Source: Oscillospiraceae bacterium (GTDB taxonomy: Bacteria; Bacillota; Clostridia; Oscillospirales; Oscillospiraceae). Taken from it: 61,259 bases of DNA. Position 1 is the stretch's first letter; every line of letters starts with the position of its first letter. A program made the position numbers and the translations under genes. The DNA lies in assembly GCA_015067975.1 (NCBI GenBank), contig SVLK01000007.1, forward strand, positions 1 to 61,259, given 5' to 3'. Shown in pieces: positions 339-55,599 of the stretch. Under the pieces are notes generated by a model, which worked only from the letters and a program-made list of their open reading frames with translations, was not told where the DNA came from and made no database searches.

Positions 339-367
339 ATGTTACCACATCTTGTTTCGCTTGTCAA
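339..367 (-). promoter_or_regulatory. rRNA promoter P2
   Basis: On the minus strand TTGACA (362-367) is followed after 17 bases by TAACAT (339-344). It is preceded by an A-rich AAAAAAGGTG stretch, like P1. It lies about 210 bases upstream of the 16S 5' end. Confidence 0.85.
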
Positions 368-432
368 CACCTTTTTTACAAAAGTTGTCGATTTTTTCGG
401 ACCCGCCGTCCGCTCTCGCAGACAGCTTTGTT

Positions 433-4408: not shown

Positions 4409-4528
4409 ATGTTCGCTGACGAACAAAATTTATTATACATATTTGGCGGCATTTGTCAACACCTAATTTCAGGAAATTGTGATTTTTTTGCAGGGCGCTC
4501 CGATCGCTCGGGGCGCCCTGTGGTTACA

Positions 4529-5155: not shown

Positions 5156-5167
5156 ACGAAGGTACTA

Positions 5168-5272
5168 TTCCCCTATAATCGCATTCCTACGCCGGCATTA
5201 CCCGGATCAGGTTCGAGGGACAGGACAGCGATATGTCTCATCTCAGCCGGCATGCGCCAGCGCCCCTTGGAT
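5168..5272 (-). promoter_or_regulatory. TPP riboswitch (THI element)
   Basis: The minus strand holds the conserved TPP aptamer blocks in order: GGGGCGC, GCTGAGA, CCCTCGAACCTGATC, GGGTAATGCCGGCGTAGG. It lies about 75 bases upstream of thiT with a terminator between, so TPP binding should terminate transcription and lower thiamine uptake. Confidence 0.96.
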
Positions 5273-5312
5273 TGTACTGTCAATATAGCACCGTCTTTCT
5301 CCCCTGTCAAGA

Positions 5313-16079: not shown

Positions 16080-16335
16080 CGCCCCTGACTCCTTTTCGGA
16101 GTCAGGGGCGATCAGATCGCGGTACCACCCTGATATGACCGTCGGTTACCCAAAACAGTCCTCAGTACCCACATGGGGCTTCGCCGTAACGGAGCGCACC
16201 GTCCTGCCCTACTGCTGCTTTCAAGCAGGAAACTCCGGGGCCAGTATCACCAAGTCCTCCACCGGCTCGCACCGACCGCCGGCTCTCTTGAGGCAGGAAA
16301 CTTCGCTTTTCTCCCCATCGCAGTTTTTCACATAC
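16080..16335 (-). promoter_or_regulatory. T-box leader of leuS
   Basis: The minus strand contains the T-box core AGGGTGGTACCGCG (16118-16131) followed by a 13-bp terminator (16080-16110) with a T5 tail. Upstream is a stem I with the GAGAGCCGG...GGTGCGAGCCGG apical part. A CTG triplet at 16242-16244 is the likely leucine specifier. Uncharged tRNA-Leu would favour antitermination and leuS expression. Confidence 0.95.
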
Positions 16336-18891: not shown

Positions 18892-19617
18892 TCAGCGAAA
18901 CAAATCGCCCAGAATCTCTTTTTCCTTGCGGATCAGCTCGCGGTTGCCCTTGGCGCACAGCTCCAGCAGTTCCTGCTGCTCGCGGGCAGTGAAGGCGCGG
19001 CCTTCGCCGGTGCCCTGCAGCTCGATGATCTCACCCAGCTCGTTCATGACGCAGTTAAGATCCACCTGTGCGCGGCTGTCCTCACTGTACTGCAGGTCCA
19101 GCAGCGCCTCGTCATCCACGATACCGGCAGAGATACCGGCCACATAGTGTTTGATGGGGGTACGGCCCAGCCAGCCCTCCTCCACCAAACGGCGGCAGGC
19201 CAGCGCCATGGCGATAAAACCGCCGGTGACCGAGGCGGTACGGGTACCGCCGTCGCCCTGCAGCACATCGCAGTCGATGGTGATGGTGCGCTCGCCCAGC
19301 AGCTCCATATCGATGGCAGCACGCAGGCTCCGGCCAATCAAACGCTGGATCTCGGCGCTGCGGCCGGACAGCTTCAGCTTGTCCACATCGCGGCGGCTGC
19401 GCTGGCGGTTGGCACGGGGCAGCATGGAGTACTCCGCCGTGACCCAGCCGCAGCCGGGCTTCACATGGGGCGGTACACGATCTTCTACCGAGGCATTGCA
19501 CAGCACCACGGTGTCGCCGCAGCGGATCAGCACGCTGCCCTCGGCAAACTTGATAAAATCGGTGGTAATGCTTACTTCACGAAGTTCATTGAATTTTCTT
19601 CCGTCAGCTCTGTTCAT
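18892..19617 (-). CDS. rph: ribonuclease PH
   Basis: A 241-residue 3'-5' phosphorolytic exoribonuclease that trims tRNA precursors. NRADGRKFNELR opens the protein, and GWVTAEYSMLPRANRQRSRRD and TIDCDVLQGDGGTRTASVTG are the RNA- and phosphate-binding signatures. The start at 19617 has AAAGGAG upstream. Its 5' flank is occupied by the four-hairpin repeat (19646-19805), so translation or transcript stability of rph could be influenced by it. Confidence 0.96.
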   Translation of the reverse strand: MNRADGRKFNELREVSITTDFIKFAEGSVLIRCGDTVVLCNASVEDRVPPHVKPGCGWVTAEYSMLPRANRQRSRRDVDKLKLSGRSAEIQRLIGRSLRAAIDMELLGERTITIDCDVLQGDGGTRTASVTGGFIAMALACRRLVEEGWLGRTPIKHYVAGISAGIVDDEALLDLQYSEDSRAQVDLNCVMNELGEIIELQGTGEGRAFTAREQQELLELCAKGNRELIRKEKEILGDLFR

Positions 19618-19645
19618 AGCACAAGTCTCCTTTTCATTGCATAGC

Positions 19646-19805
19646 AATCTCACAGAGTTCGCCGTGCAAACGGCGAAGAAAATCGAATTCATTTTTTCTA
19701 CCGACATGTGCGGGAGAAAAAATACTTCTCAGCTTGCAAACGTGCGAGCACAGCGAGTGCGCTGCAGCAAGCTGCATTTTTGCTGAAAAACGGTGTTTTT
19801 CAGCA
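19646..19805 (-). repeat. four-hairpin intergenic element, copy 1
   Basis: Read on the minus strand, four hairpins follow one another between the ftsY stop and rph. A is an 11-bp stem, 19781-19805. B is CAGCTTG/CAAGCTG, 19730-19774. C is a T6-to-A6 closed stem with a CACATGT loop, 19692-19722. D is TTCGCCG/CGGCGAA, 19658-19677. The segments between and inside the stems match the second copy at 55395-55553 closely, while stem bases differ in compensated pairs. Confidence 0.85.
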
Positions 19806-19811
19806 GGGGCG

Positions 19812-20681
19812 TTAAATCATCGCCTCAAGGAATTCCTGTGCGCTGAAAGGCTGCAGGTCATCGATACCCTCGCCCAGACCCACAAACTTCACCGGCACCT
19901 GCAGTTCCTGCGCAATGGCGATAACGATGCCGCCCTTGGCAGTGCCGTCCAGCTTGGTGAGGATGATACCGGTCAAGCCGGCAGTCTCCTTGAACTGGCG
20001 GGCCTGAATGAGGCCGTTCTGGCCGGTGGTGGCGTCCAGCACCAACAGCGTCTCCTTATCGGCATTGGGTGCTTCGCGCTCGATGATCTTGCGCATCTTA
20101 GCCAGTTCATTCATCAGATTCTGCTTATTATGCAGGCGTCCGGCCGTATCGCACAGCACCACATCGGTGCCTCTCGCCTTGGCGGCCTGCAGACCGTCGA
20201 ACAGCACGGCACCGGGATCGGCGCCCTCGTGCTGGCGCACGATGTCCACACCGGCGCGGCCTGCCCAGATCTCCAGCTGGTCGGCAGCGGCAGCGCGGAA
20301 GGTATCTCCGGCGCAAAAGAGCACCTTTTTACCCTCGTTCTTCAGCCGGTTGCCCAACTTGCCGATGGAGGTGGTCTTGCCCACGCCGTTAACACCGATG
20401 ATCAGCGCCACGCTGGGCTTGGTGTGCAGCTGCAAAGCGGTATCACCCACGTTCAGCTTTTCAGCCAGAATATCGCGCAGCGCCTGCTTCACCTGCTCGG
20501 CGCCCAGCAACTTATCGGTATAGGCGCGCTTACGCAGCTGTTCCACCGCGTCCACGGCCACTTCCATGCCCACATCGGCAAGGATCAGGTTTTCTTCCAG
20601 CTGCTCGTAAAACTCCTCGCCCAGTTCCTCGAAGGACATAGGGGCAAACCATGCTTTTTTGAATTTACTAAAGAGTCCCAT
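19812..20681 (-). CDS. ftsY: signal recognition particle receptor FtsY
   Basis: A 289-residue SRP GTPase that docks ribosome-SRP complexes at the membrane. A short amphipathic N-terminus ([12 protein letters not shown]) leads into the N domain. The G domain shows [14 protein letters not shown] (G1), DTFRAAA (G2), DTAGR (G3), [10 protein letters not shown] (G4) and the closing [13 protein letters not shown]. It lacks the long acidic A domain, as usual in Firmicutes. AGGAGG precedes 20681, and it follows smc by 14 bases. Confidence 0.97.
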
Positions 20682-53212: not shown

Positions 53213-55390
53213 ATGAAAATCATTAAGAGAAATGGCTCAGAAGTCATTTTTGACATTACCAAGATCATCATGGCCATCTCCAAGGCCAACGATACCGTAG
53301 AGGAAGCTGACCGCATGACACCGGTGCAGATCCAGCGCATCGCCCAGAGCGTGGAGCTGCAGTGCCAGAAGATGAACCGTGCACCCACTGTGGAGGAGAT
53401 TCAGGATATGGTGGAGCACCACATCATGGCCCACGGTGCGTTCGAGGTGGCCAAGAGCTACATCACCTACCGCTACACCCGCTCTCTGGTGCGTAAGTCC
53501 AACACCACCGATGACAAAATCCTCTCCCTCATCGAGTGCAACAACGAGGAGGCCAAGCAGGAGAACAGCAACAAGAACCCCGTGGTCAACTCCACCCAGC
53601 GCGACTATATGGCCGGCGAGGTCAGCCGCGACATCACCAACCGCATTTTGCTTCCCAAGGAGATCGTGGACGCCCACAACGAGGGCATCATCCATTTCCA
53701 CGACACCGATTACTATGCTCAGCACATGCACAACTGCGATCTGGTGAATCTGGAGGACATGCTGCAAAACGGCACCGTCATCACCGGTACGCTGATTGAG
53801 AAGCCCCACAGCTTCGCTACCGCCTGCAACATCGCCACTCAGATCGTGGCACAGGTAGCCTCCAACCAGTACGGCGGTCAGTCTATCTCCCTGACCCATC
53901 TGGCACCTTTCGTAGAGGTGAGCCGTCAGAAGATCCGTTCCAGCGTCCGCGAGGAGTTCGATGCCATCGGCATGGCCGCCACCGACGAGCAGGTCAACGC
54001 CATTGCCGAAAAGCGGCTGCGCGAGGAGATCCGCCGCGGTGTGCAGACCATCCAGTATCAGGTGGTCACGCTGCTGACCACTAACGGTCAGGCTCCCTTC
54101 GTCACCGTATTCATGTATCTGGGCGAGGCCAGAAGCGAGCAGGAGCGGGACGATCTGGCACTGATCATCGAAGAAGTACTTCTGCAGCGCTATCAGGGCG
54201 TAAAGAACGAAAAGGGCGTGTGGGTCACCCCCGCCTTCCCCAAGCTGATCTACGTGCTGGAAGAGGACAACGTCCGCGAAGGCACCAAGTACTGGAATCT
54301 CACCAAGCTGGCTGCCAAGTGCACTGCCAAGCGCATGGTGCCCGACTACATCAGCGAAAAGAAGATGCTGGAGCTGAAGGTGGACAAGAACGGCGAAGGC
54401 CACTGCTACACCTGCATGGGCTGCCGCAGCTTCCTGACTCCCTATGTGGATCCCGAAACCAATCAGCCCAAGTACTACGGCCGCTTCAATCAGGGTGTGG
54501 TCACGATTAACCTGCCGGACGTGGCGCTTTCTTCCGGCGGCAATATTGAAAAGTTCTGGCGCATTCTGGAGGAACGTCTGGAGCTGTGCCACCGGGCACT
54601 GCTGTGCCGTCATGAGCGCCTGAAGGGTACACTCAGCGACGCCGCCCCCATCCTGTGGCAGTACGGTGCCTGCGCCCGCCTGAAGAAGGGTGAGCCCATC
54701 GACAAGCTGCTCTACGGCGGTTACTCCACCATCTCGCTGGGCTATGCCGGCCTCTACGAGTGCGTGAAGTACATGACCGGCAAGTCCCACACCGATCCCT
54801 CCGCCACACCCTTCGCGCTGGAGATCATGGACAAGCTGAACGCTGCCTGCCGTAAGTGGAAGGCAGCCCACAACATCGACTTCAGCCTGTACGGTACGCC
54901 GCTGGAGTCCACTACCTACAAGTTCGCCAAGTGCCTGCAAAAGCGCTTCGGCATCGTGGAGGGCATCACCGACAAGGGTTATATTACCAACTCCTACCAC
55001 GTCCACGTCACCGAGCCCATCGATGCGTTCCGTAAGCTGGAGTTCGAGGCACAGTTCCAGCACCTGTCCCCCGGCGGTGCCATCAGCTATGTGGAGGTGC
55101 CGGACATGCAGAACAATCTGGACGCGGTGCTCAGCGTGATGCAGTTTATCTATGACCACATCATCTATGCCGAGCTGAACACCAAGAGTGACTACTGCCA
55201 GTGCTGCGGCTGGGACGGTGAGATCGAAATCGTGGAAGAGGACGGTAAACTGATCTGGAAGTGCCCCCAGTGCGGCAACACCGATCAGGACAAGATGAAT
55301 GTGGCGCGCCGTACCTGCGGCTACATCGGCACTCAGTATTGGAATCAGGGTCGTACGCAGGAGATTCAGGACCGCGTGCTGCACCTGTAA
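53213..55390 (+). CDS. nrdD: anaerobic ribonucleoside-triphosphate reductase
   Basis: A 725-residue class III reductase that makes dNTPs without oxygen. An ATP-cone (3-90, MKIIKRNGSEVIFDITKI) gives allosteric control. The catalytic domain has NPVVNSTQRDYMAGEVSRD, HNCDLVNLEDML and the thiyl-site CYTCMGCRSFL, a zinc site (CQCC...CPQC) and the glycyl radical motif RRTCGYIG with Gly703. AAAAGGAG precedes the ATG. NrdG, 224 bases downstream, activates it. Confidence 0.97.
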   Translation: MKIIKRNGSEVIFDITKIIMAISKANDTVEEADRMTPVQIQRIAQSVELQCQKMNRAPTVEEIQDMVEHHIMAHGAFEVAKSYITYRYTRSLVRKSNTTDDKILSLIECNNEEAKQENSNKNPVVNSTQRDYMAGEVSRDITNRILLPKEIVDAHNEGIIHFHDTDYYAQHMHNCDLVNLEDMLQNGTVITGTLIEKPHSFATACNIATQIVAQVASNQYGGQSISLTHLAPFVEVSRQKIRSSVREEFDAIGMAATDEQVNAIAEKRLREEIRRGVQTIQYQVVTLLTTNGQAPFVTVFMYLGEARSEQERDDLALIIEEVLLQRYQGVKNEKGVWVTPAFPKLIYVLEEDNVREGTKYWNLTKLAAKCTAKRMVPDYISEKKMLELKVDKNGEGHCYTCMGCRSFLTPYVDPETNQPKYYGRFNQGVVTINLPDVALSSGGNIEKFWRILEERLELCHRALLCRHERLKGTLSDAAPILWQYGACARLKKGEPIDKLLYGGYSTISLGYAGLYECVKYMTGKSHTDPSATPFALEIMDKLNAACRKWKAAHNIDFSLYGTPLESTTYKFAKCLQKRFGIVEGITDKGYITNSYHVHVTEPIDAFRKLEFEAQFQHLSPGGAISYVEVPDMQNNLDAVLSVMQFIYDHIIYAELNTKSDYCQCCGWDGEIEIVEEDGKLIWKCPQCGNTDQDKMNVARRTCGYIGTQYWNQGRTQEIQDRVLHL

Positions 55391-55394
55391 AATA

Positions 55395-55553
55395 CTTCAA
55401 TCAAAATCTTGCGATTTTGATTGAGTTTACAGAGCGCTGCAGCGCACTCGCTTTACTCGCACGTTTGCGCTCTGAGAAGTATTTTTTGTGACGCACATGT
55501 CGTCGCAAAAAATGAATTTAACTCTATTCGCGTCTTTCGGCGCGAAGTCTGTG
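55395..55553 (+). repeat. four-hairpin intergenic element, copy 2
   Basis: Between nrdD and nrdG there are four hairpins in sense orientation. A is 12 bp with TTGC loop, 55397-55424. B is CAGAGCG/CGCTCTG, 55430-55474. C is T6-GTGACG/CGTCGC-A6 with CACATGT loop, 55482-55512. D is TTCGCGTC/GGCGCGAA, 55527-55546. Linkers GAGAAGTA and AATGAATT and the loop CTGCAGCGCACTCGCT match copy 1. Confidence 0.85.
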
Positions 55554-55569
55554 ACACATAAAACCTAAA

Positions 55570-55599
55570 GGGGCGGGCCGCTGCCCGCCCCTTCTTTTT
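55570..55599 (+). terminator. intrinsic terminator between nrdD and nrdG
   Basis: GGGGCGGGC pairs with GCCCGCCCC across CGCT and is followed by TTCTTTTT. It lies directly before the nrdG ribosome binding site, so nrdG depends on read-through. Confidence 0.88.

Follow-up and report, generated by a model that had tools for sequence, protein, structure and literature searches.

Compensated stem changes in a dispersed, probably mobile palindromic repeat of Vescimonas and other Oscillospirales

The window analyzed here, a stretch of 61,259 bp on contig SVLK01000007.1 of a Vescimonas species, carries at two intergenic sites an element of four consecutive hairpins (A to D) whose stems differ between the copies and stay paired. 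Is this pairing kept in a transcript or in the DNA itself? A preliminary description of the locus had proposed either a conserved RNA fold or a structured palindromic repeat. Copy 1 (positions 19648 to 19806, minus strand, ends approximate) comprises hairpins A to D and the 3' end CTCTGTGAGA, and copy 2 (55396 to 55558, plus strand, 3' end approximate) has the same layout. The flanking genes are those that we take, from their translated sequences, to be ftsY and rph for copy 1, which is in sense to both, and nrdD and nrdG for copy 2.

On the minus strand, hairpin A of copy 1 (19781 to 19805) has an 11-bp stem, TGCTGAAAAAC/GTTTTTCAGCA, and begins 6 nt past the ftsY stop codon (19812 to 19814). 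Hairpin B (19730 to 19774) has an 8-bp covarying stem, CAGCTTGC/GCAAGCTG, enclosing a conserved loop with the motif GCGCACTCGCTNNNCTCGCAC (19742 to 19762). With up to 3 mismatches allowed, this motif had 6 matches in the same genome, five exact and one with 1 mismatch; the reversed pattern, used as a control, had 1. Hairpin C (19691 to 19723) has a 13-pair stem with one mismatch and the loop CACATGT, while hairpin D (19658 to 19677) reads directly as TTCGCCG/CGGCGAA. In copy 2, on the plus strand, hairpin A (55396 to 55425; TTCAATCAAAATC/GATTTTGATTGAG) begins 5 nt past the nrdD stop codon (55388 to 55390) and is followed by hairpin B (55430 to 55474; CAGAGCGC/GCGCTCTG), hairpin C (55481 to 55513; ATTTTTTGTGACG/CGTCGCAAAAAAT), and hairpin D (55527 to 55546; TTCGCG(TC)../..CGCGAA by direct reading). 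A G+C-rich, terminator-like hairpin lies downstream of this copy at 55568 to 55593. An inverted-repeat search paired 19650 to 19768 with 55436 to 55554 over 119 nt (79%). Direct reading placed both copies and all four hairpins where the preliminary description had them; the identical runs that it quoted are correct, as are its three compensated pairs in stem B (CAGCTTG/CAAGCTG in copy 1 and CAGAGCG/CGCTCTG in copy 2).

As RNA, the stretches with hairpins B, C, and D folded with z scores of -2.98 (2/200 shuffles as good) and -3.13 (0/200). As DNA, hairpins A to C of both copies gave z scores of -5.56 to -6.56 on both strands, with 0/200 shuffles as good in each case. Among five copies from the window's own genome, double changes were found at 10 of the 21 pairs of stems B and C, which none of 500 shuffles equaled; the measure of further pair types was not unusual (162/500 shuffles). 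When 85 distinct rows from five congeners were used, double changes appeared at 17/21 pairs (333 cells; 0/500 shuffles), bearing out the claim that stem changes in this element are compensated. In these rows 93.4% of the cells of stems B and C held a standard pair, and slid controls dropped to 35 to 49%. The sequence of hairpin A is highly variable, yet its stem score was at least 8 in 179/190 copies, compared to 26/570 shuffles; many of its arms have a common consensus, TTTCG-NNN-AAAA. Two mismatches are frequent among 144 distinct copies: T-C or C-T at pair 4 of stem B (55 copies) and A-C at pair 11 of stem C (89 copies). Types of stem B recur at several loci and in several genomes (62 types among 153 copies, counting orthologues), for which we favor exchange between copies as the explanation.

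To follow the element beyond the window, we built a covariance model of hairpins B and C from the five own copies. The search with such a model suggested in the preliminary description did find further copies, both in the window's own genome and across the Oscillospirales. The own genome, which is 84% complete, holds 7, the two window copies among them; another, on contig C13, has additional DNA inside the C loop. Matches were detected in 34 of 60 genomes, the own genome included, with 1 to 68 matches each: 30/32 genomes of the genus, 3/5 from other genera of the family, and 1/23 from the rest of the order. Two near-complete congeners had 68 (G018) and 7 (G008) copies. An order-wide survey, in which at most 10 candidates per genome were scored and copy numbers are therefore lower bounds, gave matches in 49/394 genomes and 22/167 genera. 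RNase P loci totaling 80,967 bases had no model match. In a plasmid collection, the V. fastidiosa record NZ_AP023416.1 (860,917 bases) contained the query at 100% identity and at least 40 places resembling the repeat; nothing is annotated at the best match. In the copies of V. fastidiosa examined, the B loop contains one further hairpin, again with variable but paired arms. A strict single-pattern scan of a contig collection, which may lack records close to the window, returned 2 records. A phage origin was rejected: there were 4 partial matches in unannotated fecal phage records and, with one strict pattern, 0 in viral contigs.

The working set amounted to 192 copies, orthologues included, with enough flank in 182 for the analysis of neighboring genes, in 190 for the hairpin A stem, and in 189 for flanking direct repeats. 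It includes 62 of the 68 copies of G018 (L122 is among those not counted), and 91 of the 103 further copies listed in congeners were read. These are dispersed, short, non-coding copies, as in MITEs. Some carry other DNA. A second short repeat (CGCATAAGTTCG..CCAAATC..GATTTGGG..CACTTA, with variants) is nested in B or C loops at L219, L231, L242, L253, and L357, hinting at loop-targeting insertion, and a different insert, roughly 60 nt long (CCAGCC...CCCTTGGGGTGCG, with variants), is nested in C or D loops in several species (L030, L199, L204, L260, L263, and L272).

Orthologous sites with and without the element were both found, which is a further MITE trait. Among 30 rph loci of the genus, the model matched only at the window's own locus; the 29 other congeners are without copy 1, and ftsY lies directly upstream of rph in 28 of them, with another reading frame in between in G012. 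The spacer of G014 is one that lacks the element. That of G028 also lacks copy 1 and holds 13 bases, CTGCTGAAAAACA, equal to the 5' arm of copy 1 hairpin A, either as a deletion scar or as the ancestral target; the L190 site is ambiguous in the same way. In 22 genomes the nrdD-nrdG spacer contains the element three times (the own genome, G010, and G025), a remnant with only hairpin A and the 3' end once (G019), and neither in 18; G023 has one further model match at this locus, but outside the spacer. For six more copies, filled sites could be aligned with empty or deleted ones. Internal deletions occur at several sites (the G019 nrdD locus, G007, and G018). In congeners, scattered copies of the repeat number up to tens per genome, and orthologous sites lack it.

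Some copies bear direct marks of insertion. Flanking direct repeats of 21 to 48 bp (median, 31), located 1 to 11 nt from hairpin A, were detected in 47/189 copies at a cut-off score of 15; for mismatched flank pairs, the 99% point was 10 and the maximum was 13. These 47 copies are referred to as the TSD class; in 41 of them the duplicated sequence forms a hairpin (stem, ≥7), in most cases a terminator-like one. The class is bracketed by a complete terminator-like hairpin on each side, the two being copies of one another, and insertion at stem-loops was found in this class only. At the L101, L070, and L102 flanks in G018, the two copies of the duplicated terminator are not identical, some of their differences being paired changes, and both seem to remain hairpins. 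The class typically starts with GAG.CTGTC(N)AAAAA and ends with TTTTTGACACGCTG (also given as TTTTTTGACACGCTG); several copies in other genera carry CAGCGTGTCGA and TTTTTTGACAGTCTG. Terminal inverted repeats, imperfect and judged by eye, are present in the TSD class and in several copies from other genera and are not evident in the window copies. TSD-class copies are mostly between convergent genes (28/46); in codirectional spacers 12 were in sense and 5 in antisense (P = 0.14), and 1/41 started near a stop codon.

By the same direct-repeat test, 142/189 copies, including both window copies, have no duplication. This class, which makes up 100/147 copies when orthologues are collapsed, has the same core and shows internal deletions. 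Its members mostly start no more than 10 nt past a stop codon, in sense orientation: with neighboring genes called by a home-made codon score rather than from annotation, sense copies outnumbered antisense copies 56 to 14 in codirectional spacers (P = 4e-7), and hairpin A started -2 to 10 nt from the stop codon in 50 of the 77 copies with a scored upstream gene.

What could move such an element? IS1272, of the IS1182 family, is described as targeting terminator hairpins (PMC4923244). It is reported to recognize the stem-loop and to insert without duplication, the hairpin being deleted or replaced (PMC5678879, PMC4923244), and the model in PMC5678879 has a branch predicted to duplicate the entire stem-loop. 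The TSD class fits that branch. Its target is likewise a terminator-like hairpin, and IS1182-type loci of congeners that abut palindromes have similar ends; unlike IS1272, the repeat has no transposase gene, and its whole target hairpin is duplicated in 41/47 copies, whereas the cited passages report no duplication for IS1272. In congeners, PF05598 matches were found in 5/32 genomes of the genus; G018, with its 68 copies, and the own genome had none. At 4 of 6 transposase-domain loci the end CAG..(T/C)GTCAAA.AAC stood beside a palindrome, a short similarity, assessed visually, to the ends of the repeat. Of four proteins compared with the NCBIfam IS1182 cut-off, two passed, one matched below it, and one, probably translated in a wrong reading frame, had no match. 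The IS1202 family, for which long duplications are described in the cited part of PMC10132070, was set aside, as the ends and proteins of the congener insertion sequences fit IS1182.

Together, the ends and targets suggest that the TSD class is probably mobilized by IS1182-type transposases. Counting against this, the 32 genomes of the genus yielded no autonomous partner, in the sense of an element carrying both a transposase and identical ends. The six transposase loci (61,925 bases) had no match to the B-C model, and a search for an autonomous copy in G018 by the 3' end pattern gave 32 matches, of which the two without a core were an internally deleted copy and a remnant.

We estimate at roughly 70% the probability that the element is a short, non-coding, mobile MITE-like repeat of about 160 to 270 bp, made of consecutive DNA palindromes A to D, with its TSD class moved by IS1182-type transposases. 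An IS1182-family transposase would recognize target stem-loops and join the TSD-class element at the foot of the hairpin, and repair after joining would duplicate the whole target hairpin. Hairpin A may represent the left terminal repeat of the element followed by its inverted copy. The stems would be kept palindromic at the DNA level if hairpins are needed in cis for movement, with one arm templating the correction of the other or with conversion between copies replacing both arms. Arm correction or conversion of this kind would yield compensated changes without any RNA function. If the proposal is right, IS1182-type transposition would gain naturally occurring cases, in tens of copies, of its proposed branch that duplicates the stem-loop, and in gut commensals this branch could be traced by comparing strains.

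A different account is that hairpins A to D form in mRNA, as cis-acting elements of 3' ends and operon spacers that control stability, processing, or read-through, with selection acting on the RNA. The strong covariation (17/21 pairs of stems B and C doubly changed), the sense orientation of copies without duplications behind the upstream gene (56 versus 14; P = 4e-7), and the start of hairpin A between -2 and 10 nt from the stop codon in 50/77 copies would all suit it. However, pairing that is kept in a sense RNA should tolerate G-T and not A-C. Among distinct copies we counted 33 G-T and 46 A-C mismatches in the stems (P = 0.18 against equality), leaving out pair 11 of stem C with its 89 A-C. 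Per hairpin, the G-T and A-C counts were 6 and 14 in A, 10 and 16 in B, 16 and 15 in C, and 1 and 1 in D. As a control we used RNase P RNA, of which 22 full-length sequences were obtained from 30 loci and 20 were kept, 2 at contig edges being dropped. Among departures from the commonest Watson-Crick pair, these 20 congeners showed 55 G-T versus 9 A-C, and over all cells 221 G-T and 9 A-C; the structure had been predicted from this alignment itself, which favors G-U. A tRNA control (9 tRNAs; 1 G-T, 0 A-C) was too small. Since G-T does not exceed A-C in the element, unlike in RNase P RNA, the compensation is better explained at the DNA level.

The comparison of orthologous copies points in the same direction. 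Stepwise compensation through G-U predicts intermediates, while simultaneous replacement of both arms needs none. In 41 pairs of orthologous copies from 20 loci, stem B had 221 pairs the same, 84 doubly changed, 1 wobble, and 26 broken. The corresponding numbers in the 41 pairs were 412, 68, 10, and 63 for stem C and 344, 92, 59, and 243 for hairpin A, which is often misaligned when its arms differ, so that the argument rests on stem B. The orthologue pairs were chosen by hand among flank-matched pairs and are not independent; one-flank matches were mostly left out, as was L230, where a nested insert displaces hairpin A. Unpaired sites of the element were 78% identical between orthologous copies and the upstream flanks 85%. 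Replacement of both arms could be by conversion from another copy, by reinsertion, or by hairpin-templated correction. An RNA function is possible but disfavored, and we regard it as unlikely: G-T is not in excess (33 versus 46, against 55 versus 9 in RNase P RNA), the two DNA strands fold about equally, the arms of stem B change together, and insertion sites differ among species. On the same grounds, the RNA-fold half of the preliminary description is not upheld. Its other half, a structured palindromic repeat, stands, with many copies, compensated stems, and no named RNA family that fits.

We also considered a repeat like REP or BIME whose mover would be a Y1 (HUH) transposase, an enzyme binding hairpins in single-stranded form. 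In REP/BIME and RAYT systems, as in the present repeat, palindromes lie behind genes and stems have conserved mismatches, a likeness by description. Hairpins with conserved mismatches (pair 4 of stem B in 55/144 copies, pair 11 of stem C in 89/144), the 142/189 copies without visible duplication, and the location behind genes all speak for this idea. Nevertheless, Y1 transposases were found in only 12/32 genomes of the genus and not in G007, G019, G025, and G029, which have 14 to 22 copies each (some of these genomes are incomplete). The 17 Y1 loci contained 0 model matches, and no linked Y1 gene with the repeat nearby was seen. The 47 copies with long duplications differ from REP/BIME, as such duplications are unlike the Y1 (HUH) mechanism. 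We therefore consider a Y1-driven origin improbable. Still less probable is that hairpin A took its 5' arm from the target DNA, the 3' arm being a templated inverted copy made at insertion, for although CTGCTGAAAAACA in the G028 ftsY-rph spacer matches the copy 1 arm and the element-free sites of G010 and G019 read TCTCGCGGAAA|GAGG and AACTGCGGAAA|GAGG against TTTCGTGGAAAA...GAGG in the filled site of G025, the same spacers can be scars of internal deletions, as seen elsewhere (G019 nrdD, G007, and G018), and many A arms are common to one consensus (TTTCG-NNN-AAAA).

Returning to the mobile DNA repeat, we put forward one extension, tentatively and as doubtful. These may be mobile palindromes whose stems are rewritten as matched arm pairs, both arms together, by hairpin-templated copying or by conversion, about as fast as their surroundings or faster; a single genome would then harbor tens of hairpins that share a structure but not a sequence, many of them immediately past stop codons, and they would spread by recognizing structure rather than sequence, duplicating whole terminators. 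For intergenic RNA candidates in general, covariation alone is no proof of RNA, as compensated change is strong here without an excess of G-T, and comparing G-T with A-C mismatches provides a cheap test for other candidates.

Known families were compared with the repeat. Rfam at gathering scores detected T-box, rRNA, tRNA, and TPP sequences elsewhere in the window and nothing on the element, and for six loci at E values up to 5 there were only weak matches, far below the gathering scores of the families. This agrees with the earlier statement that no named family fits. That description had also named a match to a repeat family of pure DNA type as one outcome that would speak against it; in kind, such a repeat is what we found, and a named family for it was not. 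Among the matches listed for open-access literature on terminator-targeting or IS1182 MITEs, Vescimonas or Faecalibacterium repeats, and neighboring subjects, no description of the repeat family was found. Neither window copy is an intrinsic terminator, taken as a G+C stem with a T run directly after it and oriented like the upstream gene. For copy 1 there was no minus-strand site in 19500 to 19950 (one weak site on the plus strand); for copy 2 the terminator-like site on the plus strand is downstream of the element, and hairpin A scores on the opposite strand only.

We know of no sequence relation between the repeat and the pneumococcal BOX, RUP, and SPRITE elements. The likeness is one of description: both are modular, folded, dispersed, and intergenic, partly near gene 3' ends, and duplicated terminators, as in the TSD class, are not mentioned in the cited part of PMC3049150. 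With bacterial MITEs, as characterized in the cited part of PMC10969869, the repeat shares small size, lack of coding capacity, dispersal, and strong folding, and in some copies imperfect terminal repeats and target duplications. It differs from them, as portrayed there, in its consecutive separate hairpins, in stems that are very variable but paired, and in the many copies directly behind stop codons.

Some minor observations concern RNA genes. The RNase P RNA genes L343 (G014) and L342 (G021) have about 168 and 88 extra bases, respectively, at one hairpin loop, and in G010 there is, besides the first, a diverged match to RNase P RNA (L350). On the minus strand of the window, a T-box leader lies at 16101 to 16330 and a TPP riboswitch at 5167 to 5277. 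The motif TTGTCAACACCT followed by A/T-rich DNA occurs three times near the rRNA and tRNA genes of the window (361 to 397, 455 to 491, and 4453 to 4489).
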